Shown: one piece after another, positions 26,223-41,454 of the stretch
Numbering within the stretch: the first letter of the stretch is position 1
Layout of the letters: each line of letters begins with the position of its first letter
Assembly: GCA_003056285.1 (NCBI GenBank)
Contig: NDWU01000010.1
Coordinates: forward strand, 1 to 54,454
Length of the DNA stretch: 54,454 nucleotides
From: Candidatus Terraquivivens tikiterensis
GTDB taxonomy: Archaea > Thermoproteota > Nitrososphaeria_A > Caldarchaeales > Wolframiiraptoraceae
Reading direction: 5' to 3'
Translations under genes and position numbers: made by a program
The notes under the pieces: model-generated
The model's input: only the letters and a program-made list of their open reading frames with translations
The model's database searches: none
What the model was told of the DNA's origin: nothing

Positions 26223-28186
26223 TCAAACGAAACCGTTGAATACGGCGTCAAGGGCCCTGTAGAATAGCCCTCCGAGGAGCATGGCGAACGCAACCTCGAA
26301 TAGCGTGATGTAGCAAGCCGTCTTCCACCCGAATTCCTTCTTTAACATTATGAATGTGGCGGCGCACGGTACGTAGTACATCGCTACGAACGCAAACGTC
26401 ATCATCTGGACCGGTGTGAACATGGATGCAAAGTTCGTCGTCCCGAAAACTATGGCCGGAATGATTATGACCATCTCCTTCCTCACTACGCCGAAAAGCA
26501 AAGCCGTGCCTGCGTAAGCCGGCAACCCTAACCAGCCGACTGTTAGCGGTGTTAGAAACCCTTCTACTGGCTGCAAAACGTTGAACGAGTATAGCACGGC
26601 CAGGATTCCACCTCCAAAGATATAGACGGGAAAAACTACGCGGATGATCGATTTGGCACTGTTCCATGTCTGGGCCAAGACGACCCTAACGGTAGGCAAC
26701 CTTAGCGGCGGGACCTCCATGATAAGACCCATGGATTCTCCTGGGCAGACCTTGAACGCTAACCTCGCCATACCCATAACGATTACCAGGTTTACCAACA
26801 GCAAAGCGTATGCCCACTCTATACCAACGAACGAGCCCACCAATCCGTATACCACGACGAGCCGTGCAGCGCACGGGATGAACGTAACGGCGAATGCCGA
26901 TATCAGGCGTTCCCTCTGGGTTTCCATGATCCTACACGCGTAACATGCTGGAACGTTACAGCCGTAGCCCATGATCAGCGGTATGATAGCTTTCCCGTGT
27001 AGCCCCACTTTGTGCATGACGTTATCGAGGAGGAATGCAACCCTTGGAAGGTACCCCGTATCCTCCAACACCGGGAGGAACAGGTAGAACGGAAGGACGA
27101 AGGGGGAGCAATAGGGTAACTCCTGCCACGAATCCGCCGAAGAAGCCTTCCCACAGTACCTCACCCGTTATACCGACTATCGTTGGTTTTAGCGCATCAA
27201 ACGCATCCGAGAGCACTCTGGAGACGTAATCCCCAAAGGTGAATATCGCATAAAAGGAGGAAAGGAATACGGCAGCCATTATCAAATAGCCCAGGATTTT
27301 ATGCGTAAGTAGCTTGTCAACTTTTTCTACCAGGCCGACTTTGTAAGGAGCTAAAATTCTCTGGGACTCTTTTATTACCCTGCTTATGATCGCGTACCTT
27401 TCGGAGGCCATAACGATCGGGGCTGGCATGCCCCTTATATCCTCGATCTCTTTCGCAAGCTTCTCGGCAGCCTCTACAACCTCTTTGTCCACCCTTTTCT
27501 TGATGTCCTCGTCCCCTTCGAGGAGCTTTACGGCAACGAAGCGGGGCGGATAATCGACGTCGTGATTCTTAAGAAGCTCGGTCAGCCTTTCCACCCTTTC
27601 TTCGACATCCTTGCTGTATACTACGTTCATGGGTCTTAGCTCTGTCCTGTTTCTAGCTATGCCGATGGCCTGTCGGATTAGCTCATAAACGCCTATTGCC
27701 CTTGCTCGCAACGGTAGGGACGACGGGTACGCCGAGTATCTCGCTTAGCCTTTTGTCATCCACCCGCAATCCCCTTTCCTCGGCCAGGTCGACCATGTTC
27801 AGGGCTACGACCATGGGCGTCTGGAGCTCCAGAAGCTGTAGCGTGAAAAACAGGTTCCTTTCCAAGCCGGAGGCATCCACGACGTCTATCACGACGTCCG
27901 GTTTCTCGAGCACGATGTACTCCCGGGATATGAGCTCTTCTATAGAGAACGTTGACAAAGAATATATGCCGGGCAGGTCCACGACGTCTATCACGTACCC
28001 ATCCACTACCAGGCTCCCCTCAAACTTCTCGACCGTCTTGCCGGGCCAGTTTCCCACGTGCTGGTGTAGCCCTGTAAGCTGGTTGAAAAGCGTACTCTTA
28101 CCGACGTTCGCGTTGCTGGCTAACGCGAAGACAAAGTCTGCCCTACCTTTCCTTTTGGCGCTCGAGGCGGCATGGCATGAGCTCAT
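26223..28186 (-). pseudogene. feoB: Ferrous iron transporter FeoB, two frameshifts
   Basis: Three open segments (28186-27683, 27711-27022, 27164-26223) together encode one FeoB of about 654 residues. The N-terminal G domain has [12 protein letters not shown] (Ser replaces the first Gly of G1), DLPG, and NMVD. The membrane part includes the gate helices with PFVLPFYLFLPVLEDTGYLPRVAF and the GYGCNVPAC motif. The first break is in GGG near 27704-27710 (two G would give [11 protein letters not shown]); the second is in CCCCC near 27103-27110 (four C would give LLLPFVLPFYLF). Both are single-base homopolymer changes in an otherwise well-kept gene, so sequencing error is at least as likely as true inactivation. 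It follows feoA by 2 bp. Confidence 0.87.
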
Positions 28187-28561: not shown

Positions 28562-29851
28562 CTACCCTAGCTCGAATTTTGCGCCCAGCCCGCCTAGGTC
28601 TTTTAGGAAATTCGGGTAGGAGACGCTTGCCGATTCGGCTCCTAACACGACGCAACCGTCCTTCAAGACAAGCCCTAGAAGACAGTATGCCATGAAGAGC
28701 CTATGGTCTCCCTTCGGGTCGAGTACTGCGCTCCCTGCCAGCTTACCTTGCGTTATGATCAGGCCGTCCGGCCTCTCCCTTACGTTCATCCCTATCTTGG
28801 AAAGGGCGCAGGCGAGGGCGCCGACCCTGTCGCTCTCCTTAACCCTCGCGTGCCCAACGCCCGTGATCTCGACCGGCCCGTCGCACTTGGTAGCCAGGGC
28901 TGCTAAAACCGGCAAAAGGTCCGGAGAGTCTGATAGGTTGAAGCTACCGCCTCTGAGCCTACCGCCTCCGTCCACGGTTACCCTCCCAGAAACATAATCC
29001 AGCTTAACTTTGGCTCCCATACTGGTAAGTATATCAATTATGGCCGAGTCGGCTTGCGGTAAATCCTGGCTTAGCCCCTCTACGGTAACCGAGCCATCGG
29101 TCATTAGAGCCGCGGCCATCATGAAGGATGCGAGCCCAAAATCTCCGGGCACCGTGAAACGCGTGGGCTTAAAATTCTGCTGCGAGGGGATGCGAAAAAC
29201 GGCGTACCCTTCGTTTTCCACGCGGACGCCGAACCGTTCTAGGACGCTGATCGTCGCATCGACGAAGGGTCTCGAGACGAGGCTCCCCCGAATCCTGAGC
29301 ACGGTATCTCTCAGTGCTTTTGTTGAGGAGAAAAGTATGGATGAGACGAATTGGGAAGATAAGCTGCCGTCCATCCATGCCTCACCACCCTTGAGCCCGC
29401 CACCCTTGACGACTATGGGCGCGCAGCCGTTAAGCCTCGTAGACCAGCACTCGCCCCCAAGCATGTTAAGCGCGTCGAGGAGCGGCTGCATCGGCCTCCT
29501 CCTCAGGCTCTCGTCACCCGTTAGGACGACGTACCCATCTTGAACTAGGCAGCTTACGCCCGTCATTATCCTCAACGTCGTCCCCGAGTTCTGGGCGTTC
29601 AGGACATCGTCGGGTGCCTTAGGTGTTGAGAAGCCGTTGACGAAAAGCGTGCTCTCCTCTTTCACGATGCTCGCGCCGAGCTTTTCGCATACGTTGATCG
29701 TGGCGCGTACGTCGTCTGATTCCGAAACGTTCTCCACGACGCACCTGCCATCTGTCATGGAGGCGGCTATGATCGCCCTGTGGCTGTAGCTTTTGCTAGG
29801 GGGTGCCCGGACCTTGCCGTATATTACAGAGGGCCTAACCGAGACCTTCAA
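28562..29851 (-). CDS. aroA: EPSP synthase (3-phosphoshikimate 1-carboxyvinyltransferase)
   Basis: AroA transfers the enolpyruvyl group of PEP to shikimate 3-phosphate, the sixth step of the shikimate pathway. KSYSHRAI at the N-terminus binds phosphate, LNAQNSGTTLR is the PEP-binding loop (LGNAGT-like), then SSQFVSSILF, and near the end VKESDRVGALACALS and DHRLFMAYCLL. At 429 residues it is normal. It is the last gene of the eight-gene operon and overlaps aroK by 17 bp. A chorismate synthase gene, the next step, does not follow. Confidence 0.95.
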   Translation of the reverse strand: MKVSVRPSVIYGKVRAPPSKSYSHRAIIAASMTDGRCVVENVSESDDVRATINVCEKLGASIVKEESTLFVNGFSTPKAPDDVLNAQNSGTTLRIMTGVSCLVQDGYVVLTGDESLRRRPMQPLLDALNMLGGECWSTRLNGCAPIVVKGGGLKGGEAWMDGSLSSQFVSSILFSSTKALRDTVLRIRGSLVSRPFVDATISVLERFGVRVENEGYAVFRIPSQQNFKPTRFTVPGDFGLASFMMAAALMTDGSVTVEGLSQDLPQADSAIIDILTSMGAKVKLDYVSGRVTVDGGGRLRGGSFNLSDSPDLLPVLAALATKCDGPVEITGVGHARVKESDRVGALACALSKIGMNVRERPDGLIITQGKLAGSAVLDPKGDHRLFMAYCLLGLVLKDGCVVLGAESASVSYPNFLKDLGGLGAKFELG

Positions 29852-30713
29852 CAGGGTCCCCAGCCCAGGAGTATGCCTTCTTATTGTTTGGCTTGGCGAT
29901 TATAAGCTCATACCCATCCTCGTCCAGAGCCTCAGCAACATCTTTCACGGCCTCCTCTTTGCAAACGGCAGCGACGGCTGGTCCCGTGCCGGATAGGCCG
30001 GCGGCTAGGGCTCCAGCTTTTATAGCTTCCAAGGCCTTCCTGGCGCTAATGTTTAAAGCCGCAGAGTGGAGTATGCCGTTAAGGGTTAAGGCCTTCCAGT
30101 ACTCTCCCTCCATGGCCAGCCTATAAGCTTCCTCGACGAGCGGTGCTATGGGCTTGAGCACATCTTTGTCGAAAAACTTAGTGTAGCTTTTCCATTCCGG
30201 GACGAGCAGCACGACGGCTAGCCCCTCAGGAGCTTCAACCCTTTTTACCAGCTGCCTCTCAAGGTTTTTTGTGACCACTATACCGCCGTAGAAGCTAGCG
30301 CACGCGTCGTCGTATGCGCCGGTTATCGTGACGCCAGCCTCGATGGCAGCGTCGACGGCCATGTTCAGTGCGTCGACGTCGCTCAATCTTAGATTTGCAG
30401 CCCTAGCCGTAGCCAGGACTATGGCGTTAGCGGCCGCGCTAGAGCTCTTCAACCCCCTGCCTATGGGTATGTTCGAGCTTACCTTAACGTATGCCCCACA
30501 GTCCATGCCAGCCATTTTTAAGACCCTTCGGGCCGCCGCGATAGCCAACGAGGTATCCTCTTCGGGGCTTCCCTCTATCGCTACCTCTACGTTCTTACCG
30601 CCGACCTCTACGGTAGCCTCAGTATAAAGGTCGATGCCCATGGCAGCTCCCTTACCGATCGATATGGCGTTAACGATCGTTATAGCTCCGTGCGCCCTAG
30701 CCGTCGCCTTCAT
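29835..30713 (-). CDS. aroK: Archaeal shikimate kinase, GHMP family
   Basis: In archaea shikimate is phosphorylated by a GHMP-type kinase unrelated to bacterial AroK. The ATP loop is IPIGRGLKSSSAAANAIVLA, the N-terminal block is AHGAITIVNAISIGKGAAMGIDLYTEA, and the C-terminal glycine motif is AGLSGTGPAVAAVC. The frame is open far upstream, but the family begins at MKATARAHG, so I use ATG 30713, which overlaps the aroE stop in an ATGA junction. That gives 292 residues, the normal size. Confidence 0.93.
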   Translation of the reverse strand: MKATARAHGAITIVNAISIGKGAAMGIDLYTEATVEVGGKNVEVAIEGSPEEDTSLAIAAARRVLKMAGMDCGAYVKVSSNIPIGRGLKSSSAAANAIVLATARAANLRLSDVDALNMAVDAAIEAGVTITGAYDDACASFYGGIVVTKNLERQLVKRVEAPEGLAVVLLVPEWKSYTKFFDKDVLKPIAPLVEEAYRLAMEGEYWKALTLNGILHSAALNISARKALEAIKAGALAAGLSGTGPAVAAVCKEEAVKDVAEALDEDGYELIIAKPNNKKAYSWAGDPVEGLG

Positions 30714-31588
30714 GCAAAACGACCTACTGCCTCGAGGGCAGCAGCCTTCATAACCTCTATCGGCGGGTCCAAAGAAGTCCATAGCCTGAAGGATTCCGCA
30801 GCCTGAAATACCAGCATCTCTAGTCCAGAAACGCAGGAAGCACCGGCGAGCCTTGCCTCTTTTAGGAGGAGGGTCTCTGGGGGGTTGTACACCATGTCCA
30901 TCACGACAGAGCCGCTTCTTATCTGCTCCTTCCTGAGCAGCGAGCGGCCGTCGTTCGGCCACATGCCAACAGGCGTGGCGTTAACGATAACGTTGCAAGT
31001 TTTTGCTACGTCGGACAGGTTGCTGGCAGAGAGGCCTAAACCGTTTGTAGAGACATTTAACCTCCTCCTGAAGAAGTTTGCAAGCCTACGGGCCTTCGAT
31101 CGTACACGGCCGACGAATGTTATGCAACCGCATCCAAGCCTAGCCAAGGCCAAAGCAGCAGCCGAGGCCCCTCCGCCTGTCCCGAGTATTAGCGCGTTGC
31201 AGCCGTTAAGGACGTCCTTGTATGGCAAGAGGGCTTTCATTACGCCCAAAACGTCCGTGTTGTACCCAACCATCCTATCCTTTTCTATGACGACCGTGTT
31301 AACTGCCTTTATGACTTCGGCATCGTCCACAAGCCTATCCAAAAATTTTACGACCGCCTGCTTGTACGGTATCGTTACGTTGAAGCCTACGGCTCCCAGG
31401 GCCCTAAGCCCTTTGACGGCAGGCCCTAGGGCATCCTCCTTCACCTCGAAGGCGACGTAGAGATAGTCAAGGCCAAGATGGTCGAATGCGGCATTGTGGA
31501 TATCCGGGGATACAGAATGCTTTACGGGCCGGCCGATGAGGCCTACGAGCCTTTTGTTGCCAAGGCTCTTCCTTCTTGGTATGCTCAA
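30710..31588 (-). CDS. aroE: Shikimate dehydrogenase
   Basis: AroE reduces 3-dehydroshikimate to shikimate with NADPH. The substrate domain has LIGRPVKHSVSPDIHNAAF and FNVTIPYKQAVVKFLD with the catalytic Lys; the NADPH domain has ALILGTGGGASAAALALARLG, and VNATPVGMWP and SVVMDMVYNPPETLLL follow. The 292-residue length is slightly above the E. coli enzyme. The start and stop both use ATGA overlaps with aroD and aroK, indicating translational coupling. Confidence 0.95.
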   Translation of the reverse strand: MSIPRRKSLGNKRLVGLIGRPVKHSVSPDIHNAAFDHLGLDYLYVAFEVKEDALGPAVKGLRALGAVGFNVTIPYKQAVVKFLDRLVDDAEVIKAVNTVVIEKDRMVGYNTDVLGVMKALLPYKDVLNGCNALILGTGGGASAAALALARLGCGCITFVGRVRSKARRLANFFRRRLNVSTNGLGLSASNLSDVAKTCNVIVNATPVGMWPNDGRSLLRKEQIRSGSVVMDMVYNPPETLLLKEARLAGASCVSGLEMLVFQAAESFRLWTSLDPPIEVMKAAALEAVGRFA

Positions 31589-32289
31589 CGACCCCCGGAA
31601 AGCCTTAGTGATAGCAAGCGGAGAAGCTCCCTAGCCTCGAGTATGCTGGGCTGGCCGGGCGCAGTAGGCCTTCCGGGCAATGAGACGTACATGAAGGGCG
31701 CTCCTAGCAGTACAGATAGGAACCTGGACAAAACCCCTTCAGGCCCCATGCAGAAGGCCACGAGCCTGTCCTGAGCGCCCATGTTATAGAGCGAGAGGAC
31801 TCTGGCGTTATCGCCGAAAGATTTTGCCATCGTTACGACCTTTGCGACGTTTCCGCTATCCATGGCTAAGCTGGCTACCTGCCGAAGCTCGCACGTCTCC
31901 GGCGTCTTCTCGAAGTCGTGCCATGAGATTATGACGGGCGTGCCTGACCTCATCAGGTATTTTGATAAACTTTCTGATATGGGGGAGCGGAGTTCTACGT
32001 CGACGTACGCCGGACCTTCCCTAGCTAATCTCTTGAGGATCTCCGCCCTCTCCTCTTCCTTCCCGATGAATAGCCCGCCCTCGTATTCCGGCCTGAGGGC
32101 TACAACAAGCTTGCCCATGTACGGCCTTAGTTCAGATGCTAAGGTTTCAGCGTCCAACTCATCCAGGTAGTCGAGCCTAACCTCCACGAGGTCTGCACCG
32201 CTCTCGAACGCTTTAACCACAGAGCCCTTTAGGGAGGGCATATCCCTTCCAAAAGTTGATACGCATAGCCTGCACAACATCTTCGCCAC
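31585..32289 (-). CDS. aroD: 3-dehydroquinate dehydratase, type I
   Basis: Type I enzymes dehydrate 3-dehydroquinate to 3-dehydroshikimate through a Schiff base. The residues expected are visible: EVRLDYL near 36-42, catalytic His in ISWHDF near residue 120, Schiff-base Lys in VAKVVTMAKS near 145, and the C-terminal SLPGRPTAPGQPS loop. 234 residues is typical of archaea. ATG 32280 is an alternative start three codons in. It follows aroB' by 16 bp and overlaps aroE by 4 bp. Confidence 0.94.
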   Translation of the reverse strand: MAKMLCRLCVSTFGRDMPSLKGSVVKAFESGADLVEVRLDYLDELDAETLASELRPYMGKLVVALRPEYEGGLFIGKEEERAEILKRLAREGPAYVDVELRSPISESLSKYLMRSGTPVIISWHDFEKTPETCELRQVASLAMDSGNVAKVVTMAKSFGDNARVLSLYNMGAQDRLVAFCMGPEGVLSRFLSVLLGAPFMYVSLPGRPTAPGQPSILEARELLRLLSLRLSGGR

Positions 32290-32305: not shown

Positions 32306-33349
32306 CTACCGCTCTATTATGAACTCGTCGACTGTTAAACCAAAATGCCTGGCTTTCTCCTTCGTCGTGTACACCAGCACCTTGTCGCCTGGCTTAACCT
32401 CCGTTACGGGTACAAGGTCTCCGTCAAGCCTCACGAGCCTTATGGTCTCTGCGCTCTGCAGTATGACGGAGCCTTCCTCGTCGCCGACCTTAGCCTTAAC
32501 GAGCCTTAAGGGCCTCCTCTCTATCTTCGTCCTTCCTACGGCCGTCGGCCTTGCCGAGCCCTGCGAGCTTACGATCAGCACCCTATCTCCCGCCTTTATC
32601 TCAGATAGGTATTTCGTTCTACCGTCGGGTGTTAGGATATAGCTATGTATTGCGCCCGCGTTCACCCTGAAAGGCCTAGGCTCCGTGAACGAGGAGCCTA
32701 AAGATTCGTTATGGATTAGGAATAGGAAGCTTGCCTTGCTCCCGACAAGCATGCCCTCTCCGACGGATAGGATGGAAACGGTATCGATGCAGGCCCTATC
32801 ACCCATCCCGACGTCCTTCACCTCTGTAACTTCTGCCGTTGAAAGCTGAACCCTCGTAATGTAGTTAACAACCTCGAACACTCTGGACACATCATCCTTG
32901 CTCCTAGGTTTAAACAAAACGACGTCAACGCCTTTCTCCAAAACACCGTATAACGTTTCGACCTCATCGGGACTGCTTGCCTTCGCGATGAGCCTCGTCG
33001 ATGTTTTTTGTAGATAGGCGATTATGTTCTCTAAGGGAATTATCCTCCAGTCCCTTGTGTCGACTATCAAGGCCTCGGCACCCAGCTTTGCTGCATGGAC
33101 CAACCTTTCAACGTCCTCATGGCTTTGTACGGGTGCGTATATGGCAAACCTTCTTCCCATGGGCACCTCTCCTCCGAGAGGTACGACAAGTACGTCGCCT
33201 TCTGGCGAGTCCGAGTATACCGTAACCATCCGCTTGGATTCTGGAGGGACTTTTGCTGGGTCGCAGTAGTAGGATCTGATCCCCCTGGATAAGGCTTCCT
33301 TGAAGATCTCGTCATCCCATTCCCTTAAGTCTATGCAAACTTCCTTCTT
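32306..33349 (-). CDS. aroB': Archaeal 3-dehydroquinate synthase II, no clear start codon
   Basis: This NAD-dependent enzyme turns 2-amino-3,7-dideoxy-D-threo-hept-6-ulosonate (ADTH) into 3-dehydroquinate in archaea lacking DAHP synthase. Conserved parts include IVDTRDWRIIPLENIIA, GMGDRACIDTVSIL, FLIHNESL and INAGAIHSYI-like NAGAIHSYIL. The only canonical in-frame start is ATG 33229, but coding sequence continues 40 codons further upstream (KEVCIDLREWDDEIFKEAL...), matching the first strand and helix of the family, up to the stop of aroA'. No ATG, GTG or TTG lies there, and an in-frame TGA follows shortly before. I therefore set an approximate start at the AAG codon 33347-33349. See findings. 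Confidence 0.85.
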   Translation of the reverse strand, partial: KKEVCIDLREWDDEIFKEALSRGIRSYYCDPAKVPPESKRMVTVYSDSPEGDVLVVPLGGEVPMGRRFAIYAPVQSHEDVERLVHAAKLGAEALIVDTRDWRIIPLENIIAYLQKTSTRLIAKASSPDEVETLYGVLEKGVDVVLFKPRSKDDVSRVFEVVNYITRVQLSTAEVTEVKDVGMGDRACIDTVSILSVGEGMLVGSKASFLFLIHNESLGSSFTEPRPFRVNAGAIHSYILTPDGRTKYLSEIKAGDRVLIVSSQGSARPTAVGRTKIERRPLRLVKAKVGDEEGSVILQSAETIRLVRLDGDLVPVTEVKPGDKVLVYTTKEKARHFGLTVDEFIIER

Positions 33350-34145
33350 ACCCGGCGGAAGCGTCCTTGAGCACCTCCAGCGCCTCTTTCACCGTACAGT
33401 CCTCGATTATGATGGCCCTGAGCGCCTTGGTTATAGCAAACGGGTTGTCGTGCTGGAACACGTTCCTGCCTATGGCCGCACCGACGGCGCCGGCATCCAT
33501 CGCCTCCCTTACCATCCTCAAAACCTCTAAGTCGCTTTCGGCCTTTGGCCCGCCGGCGATGACAATGGGAACTGGACACCCATCGACGACCTTCCTAAAG
33601 GCCTCCGGGCTTCCGATGTAGGGCGTCTTCACTATGTCTGCCCCGAGCTCGGCGCCTATCCTCGCTACGTGTGCGGCGATTTCGGGGTCGTTAGGGTTCT
33701 TTATGTTCTCACCCCTCGGGTACATCATAGCTATGAAAGGGACCTGCCACCTGTCACACTCGTCAGCAAGCATCCCGAGCTTCTTGAGCATCTTTGGCTC
33801 ATCTCCGCAACCTATGTTTACATGTACTGAGACTGCGTCGGCTCCGAGCCTAAGTGCCTCTTCCACGCCCGAGACCCTTACCTTGAAGTTGGGAGAAGGT
33901 CCCAGGGACGTGCTCGCGGATACGTGCATTATGGTCCCGACGTTTACTGGCTTTGGCATCATCCTAAGTATGCCCTTGTGCATCAGGACGGCGGTTGCCC
34001 CTCCGAGGCTGACCTTCTCCACCGTATCGAATATCCTATCCAAACCCTTGACAGGGCCTATCGTAACCCCGTGGTCCATCGGTATGCAGAGCATCCTTCC
34101 TTTCTCCGTTATCCTGTTTAGCCTAACTTGCTTCCCGAAAACCAA
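33348..34145 (-). CDS. aroA': ADTH synthase (class I aldolase-like, AroA')
   Basis: AroA' condenses L-aspartate semialdehyde with 6-deoxy-5-ketofructose 1-phosphate (DKFP) to give ADTH, the archaeal entry to aromatic biosynthesis. It has the DhnA/FbaB aldolase fold: MDHGVTIGPVKGL near residue 25, HVNIGCGDE, AMMYPRGENIKNP, VKTPYIGSPEAFR with the Schiff-base Lys, and IVIAGGPKAESDLEVL then GAIGRNVFQH-like AAIGRNVFQHD. A plain fructose-bisphosphate aldolase is the alternative, but the position between asd and aroB' argues for AroA'. 265 residues; normal for the family. Confidence 0.9.
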   Translation of the reverse strand: MVFGKQVRLNRITEKGRMLCIPMDHGVTIGPVKGLDRIFDTVEKVSLGGATAVLMHKGILRMMPKPVNVGTIMHVSASTSLGPSPNFKVRVSGVEEALRLGADAVSVHVNIGCGDEPKMLKKLGMLADECDRWQVPFIAMMYPRGENIKNPNDPEIAAHVARIGAELGADIVKTPYIGSPEAFRKVVDGCPVPIVIAGGPKAESDLEVLRMVREAMDAGAVGAAIGRNVFQHDNPFAITKALRAIIIEDCTVKEALEVLKDASAG

Positions 34146-34147
34146 GC

Positions 34148-35203
34148 CTAATCTATCCTCCCAGTTGCATGCAGGAGCTCGGCCGTCAGTATCGCGATGC
34201 CGGCGGCACCCCTTATCGTGTTGTGGCTAAGGACGAAGAACTTCAAGGCTTTCTCGTCTTTTGCGGCCCTTAACCTCCCGACGACTGCGCTCATTCCAGG
34301 AACGCTTCCGGCGTAGATGTCGAGCCTCGGCTGCGGCCTGTCTTCCTCCTCCATGACGATTATGGGTCTATCGGGAGCCGTGGGAAGTTTCAAATCCTGC
34401 GGAAGGCCTTTGAACTCCGCCAGCGTCCTCTTAGCACCGTCTACGCTTACGGCCTTCTCGGTCTCGACGTAAACAGATTCTAGGTGCCCATCTATCGTTG
34501 GAACCCTAGTACAGCTGGCCTCGATTGTTATCCGGGCAGGTTCGACGGCCCCATCCTTAAAATTCCCCAGTATCTTCAGGGTTTCTCTCTCAACCTTACC
34601 CTCCTCGCCCGATATGTAGGGTATTACGTTTCCGAGTATGGAGAGCGAGGGTACGCCTGGAAAACCAGCCCCCGATACTGCCTGCATCGTTGTGACGACG
34701 ACCTTCTTGAGAACATAGGCGTCGTGTAGGGGTTTGAGGGGCATGACCAAGCCTACGGTAGTGCAGTTGGGCGTGGTTACGATGTACCCATCCCACTTCC
34801 TGTTCCTTCTCTGGATGTCTATCAGTTCCATGTGCTCGGGGTTTATCTCCGGTACGATGAGCGGAACGTCCCTTTCCATCCTGTGGGCGGATGCGTCGCT
34901 CACGACGCTGAAGCCTTCTTTGGCAAAAAGCGGCTCCGACTCGTGCGCTGCTTCTGTTGGTAGTGGGGAGAAGACAAGGTCTGCGTCAACGTACTTCGGC
35001 TCCGTCGGAACGACCTCCATATCCGCTATGCTGGACGGGATGTCAACTGGGTTGCCCCTTACTGCCTCCCCGTACTTCTTGCCGATCGATTCCTTTCCCG
35101 TGAGACACGAGAGCTTGAACCATGGATGCCTAGAGAGCATGCTCACGTACCGCTGACCGACCATCCCCGTAGCTCCTAGCACTGCGACCTTAATTTGTTT
35201 CAT
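34148..35203 (-). CDS. asd: Aspartate-semialdehyde dehydrogenase
   Basis: Asd reduces aspartyl phosphate to aspartate semialdehyde with NADPH, the branch metabolite for lysine, threonine, methionine and, here, aromatic amino acids. The NADP motif is GATGMVGQRYVSML; the catalytic Cys is in VTTPNCTTVGLVMPL near residue 150; SGAGFPGVPS and the acid/base His region RVPTIDGHLESVYVE follow. It is the archaeal/fungal-type enzyme of 351 residues. It overlaps lysC by 14 bp and is followed by aroA' after 2 bp. Confidence 0.95.
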   Translation of the reverse strand: MKQIKVAVLGATGMVGQRYVSMLSRHPWFKLSCLTGKESIGKKYGEAVRGNPVDIPSSIADMEVVPTEPKYVDADLVFSPLPTEAAHESEPLFAKEGFSVVSDASAHRMERDVPLIVPEINPEHMELIDIQRRNRKWDGYIVTTPNCTTVGLVMPLKPLHDAYVLKKVVVTTMQAVSGAGFPGVPSLSILGNVIPYISGEEGKVERETLKILGNFKDGAVEPARITIEASCTRVPTIDGHLESVYVETEKAVSVDGAKRTLAEFKGLPQDLKLPTAPDRPIIVMEEEDRPQPRLDIYAGSVPGMSAVVGRLRAAKDEKALKFFVLSHNTIRGAAGIAILTAELLHATGRID

Positions 35204-36413
35204 TCAATCCCACCTCCAGGTTCGACTTCACTAGAGAGGCGGCTCTGTCCGCATCCTTTGCGGACACGAAAATCCTTATGGATGAGCTTATCGTCACTAA
35301 GCCGTAGATGTTTATGCCATGAGACGCCAGCGGTGCGACAACTTTATGGATCACGCCCGGGCTAGTCTCGAGTAGCCTTCCGCTTATGCTTATCACCGAT
35401 AGGCCTTCGAAGAAGCTTATGGCCTTGCCGATACCAGACTCCACGACCTCCTTGTGCAGCTCATCCATCAGCTTACCGGCCAGGTCTGCGTAGACGATGA
35501 TAGACCTTTCGCCCGTCGTGATGTTGAGGATTTCTCCTCCGTGTTTTTGGATGAAATCCACGATGGGCCTGACCATCGACGCTCCGTCCGAGTTTCTCGA
35601 GAGTATCGTTATCATAGTTACTTTAGCCGGATGCTTGCTTACCTCGAGTTTTGGGAGGGTGCCGATTATGACCGTTCCAGACCTTCCCAGACCTTCCATG
35701 CTTGATATCCTCAGCCTGAGACCTTCCGACAGGTACCTTAGCGCCTTTGAGTGGATGACCTTCGCGCCTCCCTCCGTCAGAAGCCTGGCCTCCTCAACGT
35801 TCAGTGTCTCGAGCATCTCAGCCTTGCTGACCTTATCCGGGTCTCCAGAATAGATGCCCTCGACATCCTTGACCAGGACGACCTCGGCGGCCTTAAGGCA
35901 GCTACCGAGGAGTATGGCGGTCGTGTCGCTCCCCCCTCTGCCCAGCGTTGTTATCTTACCGGATGCCGTCACCCCGATGTATCCGCACACCACGGGGACC
36001 TTGCCGGCCTCGATTAGGGGCAGGAGTTTCTCTTTGCACCTTTTCTCCGTTTCTTGGTATATAGGGTTTGCGTCAAGGTGCGCCTCGTCCGTTACTATGG
36101 GCCAGTACTCGGTGCTCGGGTCTACCAAGACGGCATCGACGCCGAACCTATTTAGGGCAGCCGTGAAAAGCCTGGCGCTCGTCCTCTCACCCATTGCAAG
36201 GACCTCGTCGAGCATGTCCGGTCGAATATCCGGATTCACTTCCTTTGCGATCTTCAACAGCTCGTCCGTCATCCCCTTCAGCGCCGAGACGACCACGACT
36301 AGCCCGTGCTCCTTCAGCAGATCCTTTACCCAAGATGCGGCCCTCTCGAGAGCCTTAGAGTCTTGGAGGACAGAGCCACCGAGCTTTACTACCATTATAT
36401 CTTTTATGGGCAT
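35190..36413 (-). CDS. lysC: Aspartokinase
   Basis: Aspartokinase phosphorylates aspartate, committing carbon to the aspartate-semialdehyde pool. The kinase domain has VVKLGGSVLQD, ALKGMTDELL, GRGGSDTTAILL and the KDVEGIYSGDP loop; two ACT domains at the end (MITILSRNSDGASMV and VISISGRLLETSPGVIHKV) allow feedback control by amino acids. 407 residues. It is the first gene of the aspartate-to-EPSP operon, with SD GGGAGG just before the ATG and a structured 130-nt leader. Placement here ties precursor supply to aromatic biosynthesis. Confidence 0.95.
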   Translation of the reverse strand: MPIKDIMVVKLGGSVLQDSKALERAASWVKDLLKEHGLVVVVSALKGMTDELLKIAKEVNPDIRPDMLDEVLAMGERTSARLFTAALNRFGVDAVLVDPSTEYWPIVTDEAHLDANPIYQETEKRCKEKLLPLIEAGKVPVVCGYIGVTASGKITTLGRGGSDTTAILLGSCLKAAEVVLVKDVEGIYSGDPDKVSKAEMLETLNVEEARLLTEGGAKVIHSKALRYLSEGLRLRISSMEGLGRSGTVIIGTLPKLEVSKHPAKVTMITILSRNSDGASMVRPIVDFIQKHGGEILNITTGERSIIVYADLAGKLMDELHKEVVESGIGKAISFFEGLSVISISGRLLETSPGVIHKVVAPLASHGINIYGLVTISSSIRIFVSAKDADRAASLVKSNLEVGLNETN

Positions 36414-36415
36414 GA

Positions 36416-36545
36416 CCTCCCCCCAAAGCTGGAAAAACCATCGGAGAAAAGAGAGCTTCAGAGAGAGGCGTCCAGCTCGCTATAGCGATAATAGCTATAG
36501 CCGCTCGTGAGGAAAAGGCAATCCCTCACGTTCGCCGCCTCTCTT
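36416..36545 (-). ncRNA. Candidate riboswitch leader of lysC-aro operon
   Basis: On the minus strand AGAGAGGCG (36544-36536) and CGCCTCTCT (36470-36462) form a perfect 9-bp P1. Inside are P2 CGTGAGG/CCTCACG (36530-36524/36512-36506, 11-nt loop) and P3 GCTATAGC/GCTATAGC (36501-36494/36486-36479, 7-nt loop), joined by GCGAA, AGCG and GAGCTGGA. The TATA box puts the transcript start at P1. AGCTGGA (36477-36471), in the last joining strand, is perfectly complementary to TCCAGCT (36433-36427), which directly precedes the SD GGGGGGAGG (36424-36416). A switch between the junction and this helix could control translation. It does not match lysine, TPP or other classes I can recall. Confidence 0.6.
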
Positions 36546-36567
36546 TAGATTATCTGCATCTACGTTT

Positions 36568-36578
36568 GTTATTTAAGC
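36568..36578 (-). promoter_or_regulatory. TATA box of lysC-aro operon
   Basis: Read on the minus strand the sequence is GCTTAAATAAC. Its centre lies about 26-28 bp before P1 of the leader RNA, so transcription should begin at about 36545-36548. It is the only good TATA box before the eight co-directional, overlapping genes. The motif is nearly symmetric and could also fire on the plus strand. Confidence 0.65.
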
Positions 36579-38595: not shown

Positions 38596-41454
38596 ATGAA
38601 CAACATACCGTTAAAGAGGCTGGAGGAGAACGTCTGGGTTATAGAGAAGAATTTTAAGCAGGGTATGAGGGTACCCGTTACCATATTCGCATCGCAGAAA
38701 TTGCTCCAAAAGATGATGCAGGACAGGACGCTCGACCAGGGTGCGAACGTCGCCATGCTTCCGGGCATATACAAGGCCAGCATAGTGCTTCCGGATGCGC
38801 ACGAGGGCTATGGATTTCCTATAGGAGGTGTGGCAGCCATGGACGCAAGCGATGGTGTTATATCGCCAGGTGGCGTAGGGTACGATATAAACTGCATTCC
38901 GGCGGGAACCAGGATACTAACGAGGTACGGTGCGACTAGGCCGATAGAGGAGCTTCGGATAGGAGACGAGGTCTTATGCATTAGGGGGTGCACCGCAGAA
39001 GAGGCCAAGGTAATTCTTCGAATGAGTAGGCGCGATAAAATTGTACTTAAGATTAGGACTAAGAGCGGGTTCGATATTAAAGTAACGCCGGATCATCCTA
39101 TACTCACACCAATGGGTATGGTTGAGGCAAGGCTGCTAAGAATTGGGGATAGGGTTGCGACCTACCCCTTCGAGGGTGTGGCGTATGAGGAGCACGAGGA
39201 AAGGGTGATCCTCCCAGAGAACGTTTTTGAGAGGAAAGTTTCTTCTGAGCTGAAAAAGCGCGACCTACTTCCCTTAACCTCTAAAAACAAAAAACTGCCG
39301 GTGCTGATAAAGCTCCTTGGATACTTCACAGGAGATGGGACATTCGATGGGAAGAAAGTTATCTTTTACGGAAGTAAGGAGGGGCTTAAAAAGCTTCAAG
39401 AAGACATAAGGCTCCTAGGCTATACCCCCTCGAAGATCCACGTAAGGAAACGGGTTAGTGTAATAAATGGCAAGAGCACGGTTGGAAGAGAGTATTCCGT
39501 TCACGTTCCAGCCAGAAGCTTTAAAGAGCTTCTTATAAAGCTCGGCGCACCTTCTGGTAATAAGGTCGAGACGGCCTACGAGGTGCCCAGCTGGCTTTTC
39601 AGCCTGCCAGCTTGGATGAAGAGGCTATATTTGGCATCGCTTTTCGGAGCCGAGCTAGACAAGCCTCGGACAGTAAATGGTTATAATTTCGAACCTCCCC
39701 AGCTGACGCTAACAAAAGTCGAAGAGCTCGAGGATAACGGAAGGTTGTTCCTAAGTCAGATTACGAAGCTCTTAAGAGAATTCGGGGTTGAGGTATGCGG
39801 GATAAACGTTATCAGGATGGATAAGAAGGTTAAACTTGGGTTAACGATCTCAGAGAAGCCCTCAAACCTAGTAAACCTCTGGAGCAGGATAGGCTATGAG
39901 TATTCACCAGAGAGGATGAGGCTAGCATTAGCAGCCGTCGCTTGGCTTAAACTCAAGGAAAAGGTACCCAGGAGCAGGGAAGAGGCAGAGGCTAAAGCCA
40001 TTTTGATGCTCGCCTCAGGAACCTCCGGGGGTACAATAATAGAGCAGACCACGTCGGAATACGTTGACCAGAGATCCACCGAGCGACAAATCTACGAAGG
40101 TAGGTTAAGCTCTCCCATGGATCCTACAAGCTTTCCAAAGTTTGAGGAGTGGGCCGAAAAGACATTAGAGGGCGATATCGTGTGGGACGAGATAGAAAGC
40201 ATCGAGCCGATCGAGTTCGAAGGGGAAGTGTATGACTTTACAGTAGATAACGAAGGGCATAGCTTCGTCGCGGAAGGGTTTGTTGTTTCAAACTGCGGCG
40301 TCAGGCTCATGGTAACAAACCTTACCGTGAAGGACGTGATGCCTAAGCTAAGGGAGCTCGTCGATTCGATTTTCAAGAACGTTCCCGCAGGCCTTGGAAG
40401 CAGGCGGAGAGACTTTAGGGTAAGCTCCTCCGACCTGGATAGGATAGCCGTAGAGGGCGCGCGTTACATCATAGAAAAGTACGGGCTCGGATGGAGCGAG
40501 GACATAAAGCATATAGAGGAGGAGGGGACGTTAGAGGGAGCAGACCCGTCTAAGGTTTCGCCGACAGCCAAGAGCAGGGGCGAGCCGCAGATAGGCACAC
40601 TCGGTAGCGGCAACCACTTCCTCGAGGTACAGAGGGTTGACAAAATATTTGACCGAGAGGCCGCGAAGCTCATGGGGATAACCCAGGAGAACCAGATTAC
40701 GGTCCTGGTTCACACAGGTAGTAGGGGATACGGTCACCAGATATGTAGCGACTACCTGAAGGTTATGGAGAGGGCGGCCCACAAGTATGGTATCAAGCTA
40801 CCGGACAGGGAGCTAGCGTGCGCGCCCGCAAACACGCCAGAGGCCGACCAGTACCTTAAGGCTTTTGCCTGCGCCGTTAACTTTGCGTTCGCGAACAGGC
40901 AGGCGATCAGCCATTGGGTAAGGCAGAGCTTCGAGGAGGTGTTCAGAGAGCCTGCAGAGTCGCTAGGCATGAAGGTCGTGTACGACGTAGCCCACAACAT
41001 AGTAAAGCTCGAAAAGCATAAGGTAAACGGTGAGACGAAGGACGTTTACGTTCACAGGAAGGGAGCTACGAGGAGCTTTCCAGCTGGACACCCGCTCGTG
41101 CCCAGCGACTACAGGAGCATAGGGCAGCCGGTTATAATCCCTGGTTCGATGGGAACAGCCAGCTGGCTTCTCTTGGGAAACCCGAGGGCCATGGAGCTTA
41201 GCTTCGGCAGCACGGCCCACGGAGCGGGAAGGGAAATGAGCAGGGCAGGGGCGAAGAGGAAGTACACTGGCCTGACAATCATGAAGGAGATGGAGAGCAA
41301 GGGAATAATTGTCAGGAGCGATAGTACTGAGACCTTGGTGGAGGAGGCAGACGAGGCCTATAAGAACGTTGACGACGTCGTAGAGGTTAGCCACGCGGTA
41401 GGTATAGCGACGAAGGTCGCCAGGATGGTTCCTATAGGGGTAATCAAGGGTTAA
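38596..41454 (+). CDS. rtcB: RtcB RNA-splicing ligase with intein
   Basis: RtcB joins RNA 2',3'-cyclic phosphate ends to 5'-OH ends, the ligation step of archaeal tRNA splicing, using GTP and Mn2+. The 952-residue precursor contains a 467-residue intein after Asn99; the mature ligase would have 485 residues. N-extein block LPDAHEGYGFPIGG and ISPGGVGYDIN meet the C-extein CGVRLM, so the intein splits the metal-binding Cys site. Further active-site elements are GSGNHFLEVQ, LVHTGSRGYGHQI, YDVAHNIVK and the guanylylated His in STAHGAGREMSR. All are intact, so splicing should give active enzyme. The promoter is a TATA box 29 bp upstream. Confidence 0.96.
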   Translation: MNNIPLKRLEENVWVIEKNFKQGMRVPVTIFASQKLLQKMMQDRTLDQGANVAMLPGIYKASIVLPDAHEGYGFPIGGVAAMDASDGVISPGGVGYDINCIPAGTRILTRYGATRPIEELRIGDEVLCIRGCTAEEAKVILRMSRRDKIVLKIRTKSGFDIKVTPDHPILTPMGMVEARLLRIGDRVATYPFEGVAYEEHEERVILPENVFERKVSSELKKRDLLPLTSKNKKLPVLIKLLGYFTGDGTFDGKKVIFYGSKEGLKKLQEDIRLLGYTPSKIHVRKRVSVINGKSTVGREYSVHVPARSFKELLIKLGAPSGNKVETAYEVPSWLFSLPAWMKRLYLASLFGAELDKPRTVNGYNFEPPQLTLTKVEELEDNGRLFLSQITKLLREFGVEVCGINVIRMDKKVKLGLTISEKPSNLVNLWSRIGYEYSPERMRLALAAVAWLKLKEKVPRSREEAEAKAILMLASGTSGGTIIEQTTSEYVDQRSTERQIYEGRLSSPMDPTSFPKFEEWAEKTLEGDIVWDEIESIEPIEFEGEVYDFTVDNEGHSFVAEGFVVSNCGVRLMVTNLTVKDVMPKLRELVDSIFKNVPAGLGSRRRDFRVSSSDLDRIAVEGARYIIEKYGLGWSEDIKHIEEEGTLEGADPSKVSPTAKSRGEPQIGTLGSGNHFLEVQRVDKIFDREAAKLMGITQENQITVLVHTGSRGYGHQICSDYLKVMERAAHKYGIKLPDRELACAPANTPEADQYLKAFACAVNFAFANRQAISHWVRQSFEEVFREPAESLGMKVVYDVAHNIVKLEKHKVNGETKDVYVHRKGATRSFPAGHPLVPSDYRSIGQPVIIPGSMGTASWLLLGNPRAMELSFGSTAHGAGREMSRAGAKRKYTGLTIMKEMESKGIIVRSDSTETLVEEADEAYKNVDDVVEVSHAVGIATKVARMVPIGVIKG
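38893..40293 (+). other. RtcB intein with LAGLIDADG homing domain
   Basis: The intein begins with Cys (CIPAGTRILTRYGATRPIEEL, block A), has block B VTPDHPILT with its TxxH, a homing endonuclease with two LAGLIDADG-type helices (LLGYFTGDGTF and LYLASLFGAEL), block F VYDFTVDNEGHSFVAEG and ends FVVSN before extein Cys. Both endonuclease acidic positions (Asp, Glu) are present. The penultimate residue is Ser, not the usual His, which is tolerated in some inteins. The insertion site equals that of the intein I recall in Pyrococcus horikoshii RtcB. The coding sequence looks intact, so it may be mobile. Confidence 0.93.

Follow-up and report, generated by a model that had tools for sequence, protein, structure and literature searches.

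In bacteria, the trpL, pheL, hisL and ilvB leaders place a short open reading frame (ORF), rich in codons for the product of the pathway, between the promoter and the first gene, together with mutually exclusive RNA helices. The archaeal regulators described for aromatic amino-acid genes include TrpY and Tar (TK0271) (PMC6737238). Almost no Crenarchaeota have either protein, and a third mechanism was raised as a possibility in 2019 (PMC6737238). TrpY and Tar are DNA-binding proteins that act at euryarchaeal promoters, whereas the locus described here has an RNA leader and belongs to another phylum.

According to a 2021 paper, all known transcriptional activation and repression in archaea targeted promoter recruitment (PMC8448881). 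Ribo-seq of Methanosarcina mazei has revealed small ORFs within 5' UTRs that were missing from the annotation (PMC11456600). The introduction of the uORF4u paper counts archaea among the organisms that use leader peptides, and the passages covered contain no archaeal example (PMC10219788). The same passages describe the ermC leader (ermCL), translation of which decides whether the Shine-Dalgarno (SD) sequence of the next gene is free (PMC10219788). No precedent for an archaeal leader peptide or attenuator was found in the literature searched, which was mostly without subscription papers.

The window, meaning the whole 54,454-nt stretch of DNA analysed, carries an eight-gene operon on its minus strand. 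With NCBIfam models, the order is lysC-asd-ADTHS-DHQ synthase II-aroD-aroE-archaeal shikimate kinase (aroK)-aroA, in agreement with the aspartate-to-EPSP operon named in the preliminary description of this DNA. The first structural gene, lysC, encodes aspartate kinase (35190-36413; NCBIfam aspartate kinase models). Behind it are asd, for aspartate-semialdehyde dehydrogenase (34148-35203; TIGR00978 over cut-off), and the genes for 2-amino-3,7-dideoxy-D-threo-hept-6-ulosonate synthase (ADTHS; 33348-34145; TIGR01949 over cut-off) and 3-dehydroquinate synthase II (32306-33229; PRK02290 family models, below equivalog cut-offs). The genes aroD, aroE, archaeal shikimate kinase and aroA, for EPSP synthase, complete the operon (28562-32289; NCBIfam). 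A second aspartate kinase, more distant than the lysC of the shikimate operon, is encoded elsewhere in the genome. A conserved aromatic leader on this operon would suggest that its aspartate kinase serves aromatic synthesis, and not lysine or threonine.

Two other genes in the window deserve mention. On the minus strand, feoB (26223-28186) is seemingly spread over several reading frames, as if frameshifted or split, with separate feoB model matches for the N-terminal portion (27683-28186) and for the C-terminal one (26223-27164). On the plus strand, an RtcB family RNA ligase gene with an intein lies at 38596-41454 (NF038162 over cut-off).

Upstream of lysC is a leader (36415-36560, minus strand) that holds an SD, a GTG start, a 23-codon frame and a TGA stop. 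A TATA-like box, TTAAATAA (36569-36576, minus strand), is the likely operon promoter. The same (C)TTAAATAA box, or a variant such as CGTTTAAATAAC, stands at equal distance in other members of the genus. The predicted leader ORF runs on the minus strand from the GTG at 36529 to the TGA at 36458 and would encode MRDCLFLTSGYSYYRYSELDASL. Region 1, located 13-15 nt before the GTG, is the leader SD AGAGAGGCG (36536-36544, minus strand) and is invariant in six species; the SD-like sequence ahead of the GTG reads AGAGAGG.

Across six species of the genus, all 24 leader codons, the SD, the start and the stop (retained as TGA or TAA) aligned without gaps. Codons 6, 11, 13, 14 and 16 are aromatic in 6/6 species, and ten others (4, 7-10, 12, 15 and 18-20) vary. 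The five codons therefore stay aromatic while the remainder of the peptide drifts, as expected of regulatory codons. Tyr13 is replaced by Trp in two of the six species through a double change (TAT to TGG), and one species has TAC for TAT at a conserved aromatic codon. Within the genus, leader pN is 0.117 and pS is 0.104, making dN/dS uninformative, which is expected if only the aromatic codons matter. A predicted leader gene rich in Tyr, Phe and Trp codons is well supported.

Two helices would compete for a segment at the leader stop. This segment, region 2 (36454-36470, minus strand), contains the 3' strand of stem P1 (36462-36470) and the 5' strand of helix S (36454-36469). P1 pairs region 1, as its 5' strand, with CGCCTCTCT over 9 bp. 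Helix S joins GCCUCUCUCUGAAGC, at the leader stop, to GCUUUGGAGGGAGGU, which holds the lysC SD, in an uninterrupted run of 16 bp in the window, with G-U pairs allowed; it is far longer than the AGCTGGA/TCCAGCT pairing of the preliminary description, which does not mention it. The 3' strand of S is region 3 (36415-36430, minus strand), the complement of region 2, where the lysC SD GGGGGGAGGT lies within AGCTTTGGGGGGAGGT. Since both helices use region 2, P1 and S are mutually exclusive. Helices were scored as contiguous runs; a looser duplex statistic was uninformative, as it merged separate helices. By this measure, S is 15-18 bp long in 6/6 species of the genus (p 0.02 each), with pairing in 95.8% of cells. 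Covariation support within the genus is nevertheless weak, because P1 does not vary and the changes in S are one-sided only.

Family f4 has the same arrangement in other sequences, with S helices of 9-14 bp that have a strand in common with P1. They are AAGCCGCCTCCGGG/TCTGGGGGTGGTTT in L010 (14 bp), 11-bp helices in L009 and L011, and CCTCCGGCC/GGTCGGAGG in L020 (9 bp). L011, L020 and family f2 (15 bp in L203, 14 bp in L206) have clear P1-type helices; the P1-type helix of L009 is not the top helix. When P1 was enforced instead of blocked, the chance that the SD of the first gene is unpaired rose at 10/10 loci (partition function, 37 and 70 °C). Even with P1, the SD is mostly paired at equilibrium in several species, since it finds a further partner in a second pyrimidine tract. 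In equilibrium folding, the SD opened when the ribosome was masked over the leader stop and not when it was masked on the Tyr codons, which counts against the attenuation model proposed below; such masking alone gives no ON/OFF direction, so the direction hangs on the order of folding. For the genus and family f4, mutually exclusive helices were thus shown computationally, from sequence and predicted energy. The predicted SD-hiding helix is tied to the leader region, as it is in translational attenuators.

We consider it probable that this archaeal shikimate operon is under ribosome-mediated attenuation by its leader, acting on translation initiation. A ribosome would load at region 1 and translate the 23-codon peptide rich in Tyr, Trp and Phe. 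Region 2 has two possible partners, region 1 (giving P1) and the lysC SD in region 3 (giving S). If charged aromatic tRNA were scarce, the ribosome would stall between regions 1 and 2, P1 would close once region 2 had been made, and the lysC SD would be comparatively open (ON). If charged aromatic tRNA were plentiful, the ribosome would reach the stop and cover region 2 until region 3 had been made. S would then form and hide the lysC SD (OFF). We infer leader translation, the aromatic-starvation signal, the ON/OFF direction, the level of the output and the effects on downstream genes. Aromatic amino acids as one candidate signal and access to the lysC SD as the output had been proposed in the preliminary description; both are plausible.

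An aromatic leader would also fit with an output at the level of transcription, where premature termination before lysC, at an archaeal U-tract or through FttA/aCPSF1, would change as the leader is stalled on or completed and would take the place of SD access. Archaeal polarity has been ascribed to FttA (PMC12548453), and several leaders have pyrimidine-rich spacers with T runs. However, these runs are not conserved in the genus, where the TTTTT of the window shortens to TTTT or TTT in other members, and the 15-18 bp helix is aimed at the lysC SD itself. A scan with bacterial consensus, which archaeal U-tract termination may escape, found 0 terminator-like sites between the leader and the first gene. 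As no terminator was found, a translational output is favoured, and we regard the transcriptional one as unlikely.

The leader had first been described as a candidate riboswitch. Its described parts are all present on the minus strand: the TATA-like box about 28 bp before P1, the 9-bp P1, a 7-bp P2 hairpin (CGTGAGG/CCTCACG, 36506-36530), an 8-bp P3 (GCTATAGC/GCTATAGC in the window sequence) and the complementarity of AGCTGGA (36471-36477) to TCCAGCT (36427-36433). P2 covers the start of the leader ORF, and P3 is the run of aromatic codons Y11-S-Y13-Y14-R-Y16 (36482-36499, minus strand), aromatic in six species. P2 and P3, with their loops, thus lie inside or at the edge of the translated-looking ORF.

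A riboswitch would consist of a three-way-junction aptamer that controls the lysC SD and has as its ligand an aromatic amino acid or an intermediate of the pathway. Consistent with this, the leader folds better than shuffled sequences (z -2.6; 1/200 shuffles equally good), P1 is invariant in the six species, and P2 is retained, being paired in 97.6% of cells with one-sided changes only. However, P3 is broken in two of the six species (L005 and L006), and AGCTGGA/TCCAGCT, the proposed switch, keeps its pairing in just 76% of cells in the genus. Other families retain the aromatic codons and not the three-way junction. Zero pairs with a two-sided change were found in the genus and the junction does not covary, arguing against a new riboswitch class. 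Rfam covariance models gave 0 matches for the window at gathering thresholds and none for the leader up to an E-value of 10, in keeping with the earlier view that this is not the lysine riboswitch. What stands of the riboswitch proposal is a conserved cis-regulatory leader; a ligand-binding junction, the three-way junction being largely codons, is not supported. Because the codon run that makes up P3 is not maintained as a stem while its aromatic codons are, the sensor is more likely a translating ribosome than a ligand-binding RNA. Most of the stem structure upstream of lysC reflects a short predicted gene, and we judge riboswitch control very improbable.

Elsewhere in the phylum, the aromatic leader is accompanied by other helices. 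In genera g2, g3 and g5 of the same family, and in Bathyarchaeota, the leader is present with a different helix pair. This alternative pair, seen in L207-L209 and L008-L019 (same family) and in L120-L152 (Bathyarchaeota), joins the leader SD region to mid-leader aromatic codons and adds a hairpin situated at the leader stop or immediately behind it. Among 22 Bathyarchaeota leaders, we found two conserved helices. The first spans the start region of the leader and the SFDY codons, the second directly follows the stop, and three pairs have two-sided changes.

These lineages also bear on whether the product is a small peptide with a role in the cell or an arrest peptide, with the nascent chain and not codon starvation sensing a small molecule. 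Some C-terminal motifs are indeed shared within lineages (FWSYxYFALA; SFDYGFYYFGYFP). However, in those same lineages the residues in common fall where RNA helices form, and between lineages the sequences are wholly different while the aromatic content persists. With pN close to pS in the genus as well, we give this explanation very little credence.

Relatives across the phylum were gathered by whole-genome searches with LysC, a search for the ADTHS family and a scan of named genomes; the sampled shikimate operons are headed by lysC, asd or ADTHS. The best short ORF upstream of these operons was rich in Phe, Tyr and Trp at a shuffle p ≤ 0.01 for 51/79 loci and at p ≤ 0.05 for 56/79, two genomes being counted twice among the 79 (L035/L145 and L036/L127). 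By comparison, 0/15 paralogous aspartate-kinase operons without shikimate genes had an aromatic leader at p ≤ 0.05. The curated set of 74 leaders, which includes weak ones, has 34% aromatic residues and a median length of 25; examples are MSSTAYFKELNTFNPYYYYYYYCFF (L114), MASEGSRKKVFGFFYGFYFYFYFGP (L123), MRSLTVYCWQLYAFKAYRYYYRFF (L116) and MTSATPKKESLTSRFFSFDYYFYYFN (L120). The leader tracks the first gene of the operon, whether lysC, asd (L203, L206) or ADTHS (L207-L209). The predicted aromatic leader and its selective association with shikimate operons were shown computationally in this comparison.

Leaders are weak in families f10, f17 and f39, and a recognisable leader is absent from the related operons f3, f16, f58 and L018. 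No consistent leader was found in relatives upstream of trpE (30 loci) or hisG (30 loci). In families f7, f45 and f41 the ADTHS genes have no leader, and neither do DAHP-synthase genes elsewhere in the phylum (0/30), a gene that may not head its operon. Within the window alone the leader ORF, with a score of 1.3 (p 0.02), does not stand out from the aromatic-rich short ORFs of similar score upstream of other genes, so the inference is comparative. Recurrence at shikimate operons in many families, against 0/15 matched controls, leaves almost no likelihood that the ORF arose by chance and has no role in an ordinary untranslated region.

Several other short ORFs were noted. MWGMCLWQ, before trpE in the genus, was dropped as a leader since it overlaps the likely trpE start, and MMWMDYFFMHN of Jordarchaeia (L033) was set aside because it is weak (p 0.11) and has no shikimate genes next to it. 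A possible Trp leader in another family is MRDIIWHYWFNR of L224, a short ORF that lies about 90 nt ahead of trpE and has a strong SD, AAAAGGGGATTTAAAATG. In family f10 (L028, L029, L115 and L119), only 6-7 nt separate the leader's end, FYxMFHYY/C or similar, from the lysC SD, and translation of lysC may be coupled to that of the leader. Family f14 (L118, L127 and L130) has lysC-DHQS with an aromatic leader and a divergent ADTHS gene upstream; a single intergenic region may therefore serve both directions.

For the phylum as a whole, we lean towards the view that aromatic leader-peptide attenuation exists in Archaea, extends phylum-wide to include Bathyarchaeota, and is a main control of the shikimate operon that starts from aspartate semialdehyde. 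In the genus and family f4, it would take a terminator-free form in which a single anti-SD segment is contested by the SD of the leader and that of the structural gene. If true, a conserved aromatic leader peptide would bring the classic control by a ribosome as sensor to archaea. It would also offer an answer to the question of a third mechanism for those lineages of the phylum that start from aspartate semialdehyde.

Like the lysine riboswitch and the T-box, the leader described here is a cis-acting RNA of amino-acid genes, but its sensor would be a coding sequence and it matches no Rfam family. The closer resemblance in form is to trpL, pheL, hisL and ilvB, with which it shares a short ORF rich in product codons and mutually exclusive helices. 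In contrast to those attenuators, the host is an archaeon, the operon serves the common aromatic pathway, and the leader has all three kinds of aromatic codon. No intrinsic terminator was found here, and the predicted helix instead hides an SD. As for ermCL, translation of the leader is proposed to govern the SD of the next gene; here, however, the signal would be aminoacyl-tRNA supply and not a drug, and the competing strand is the leader's own SD.
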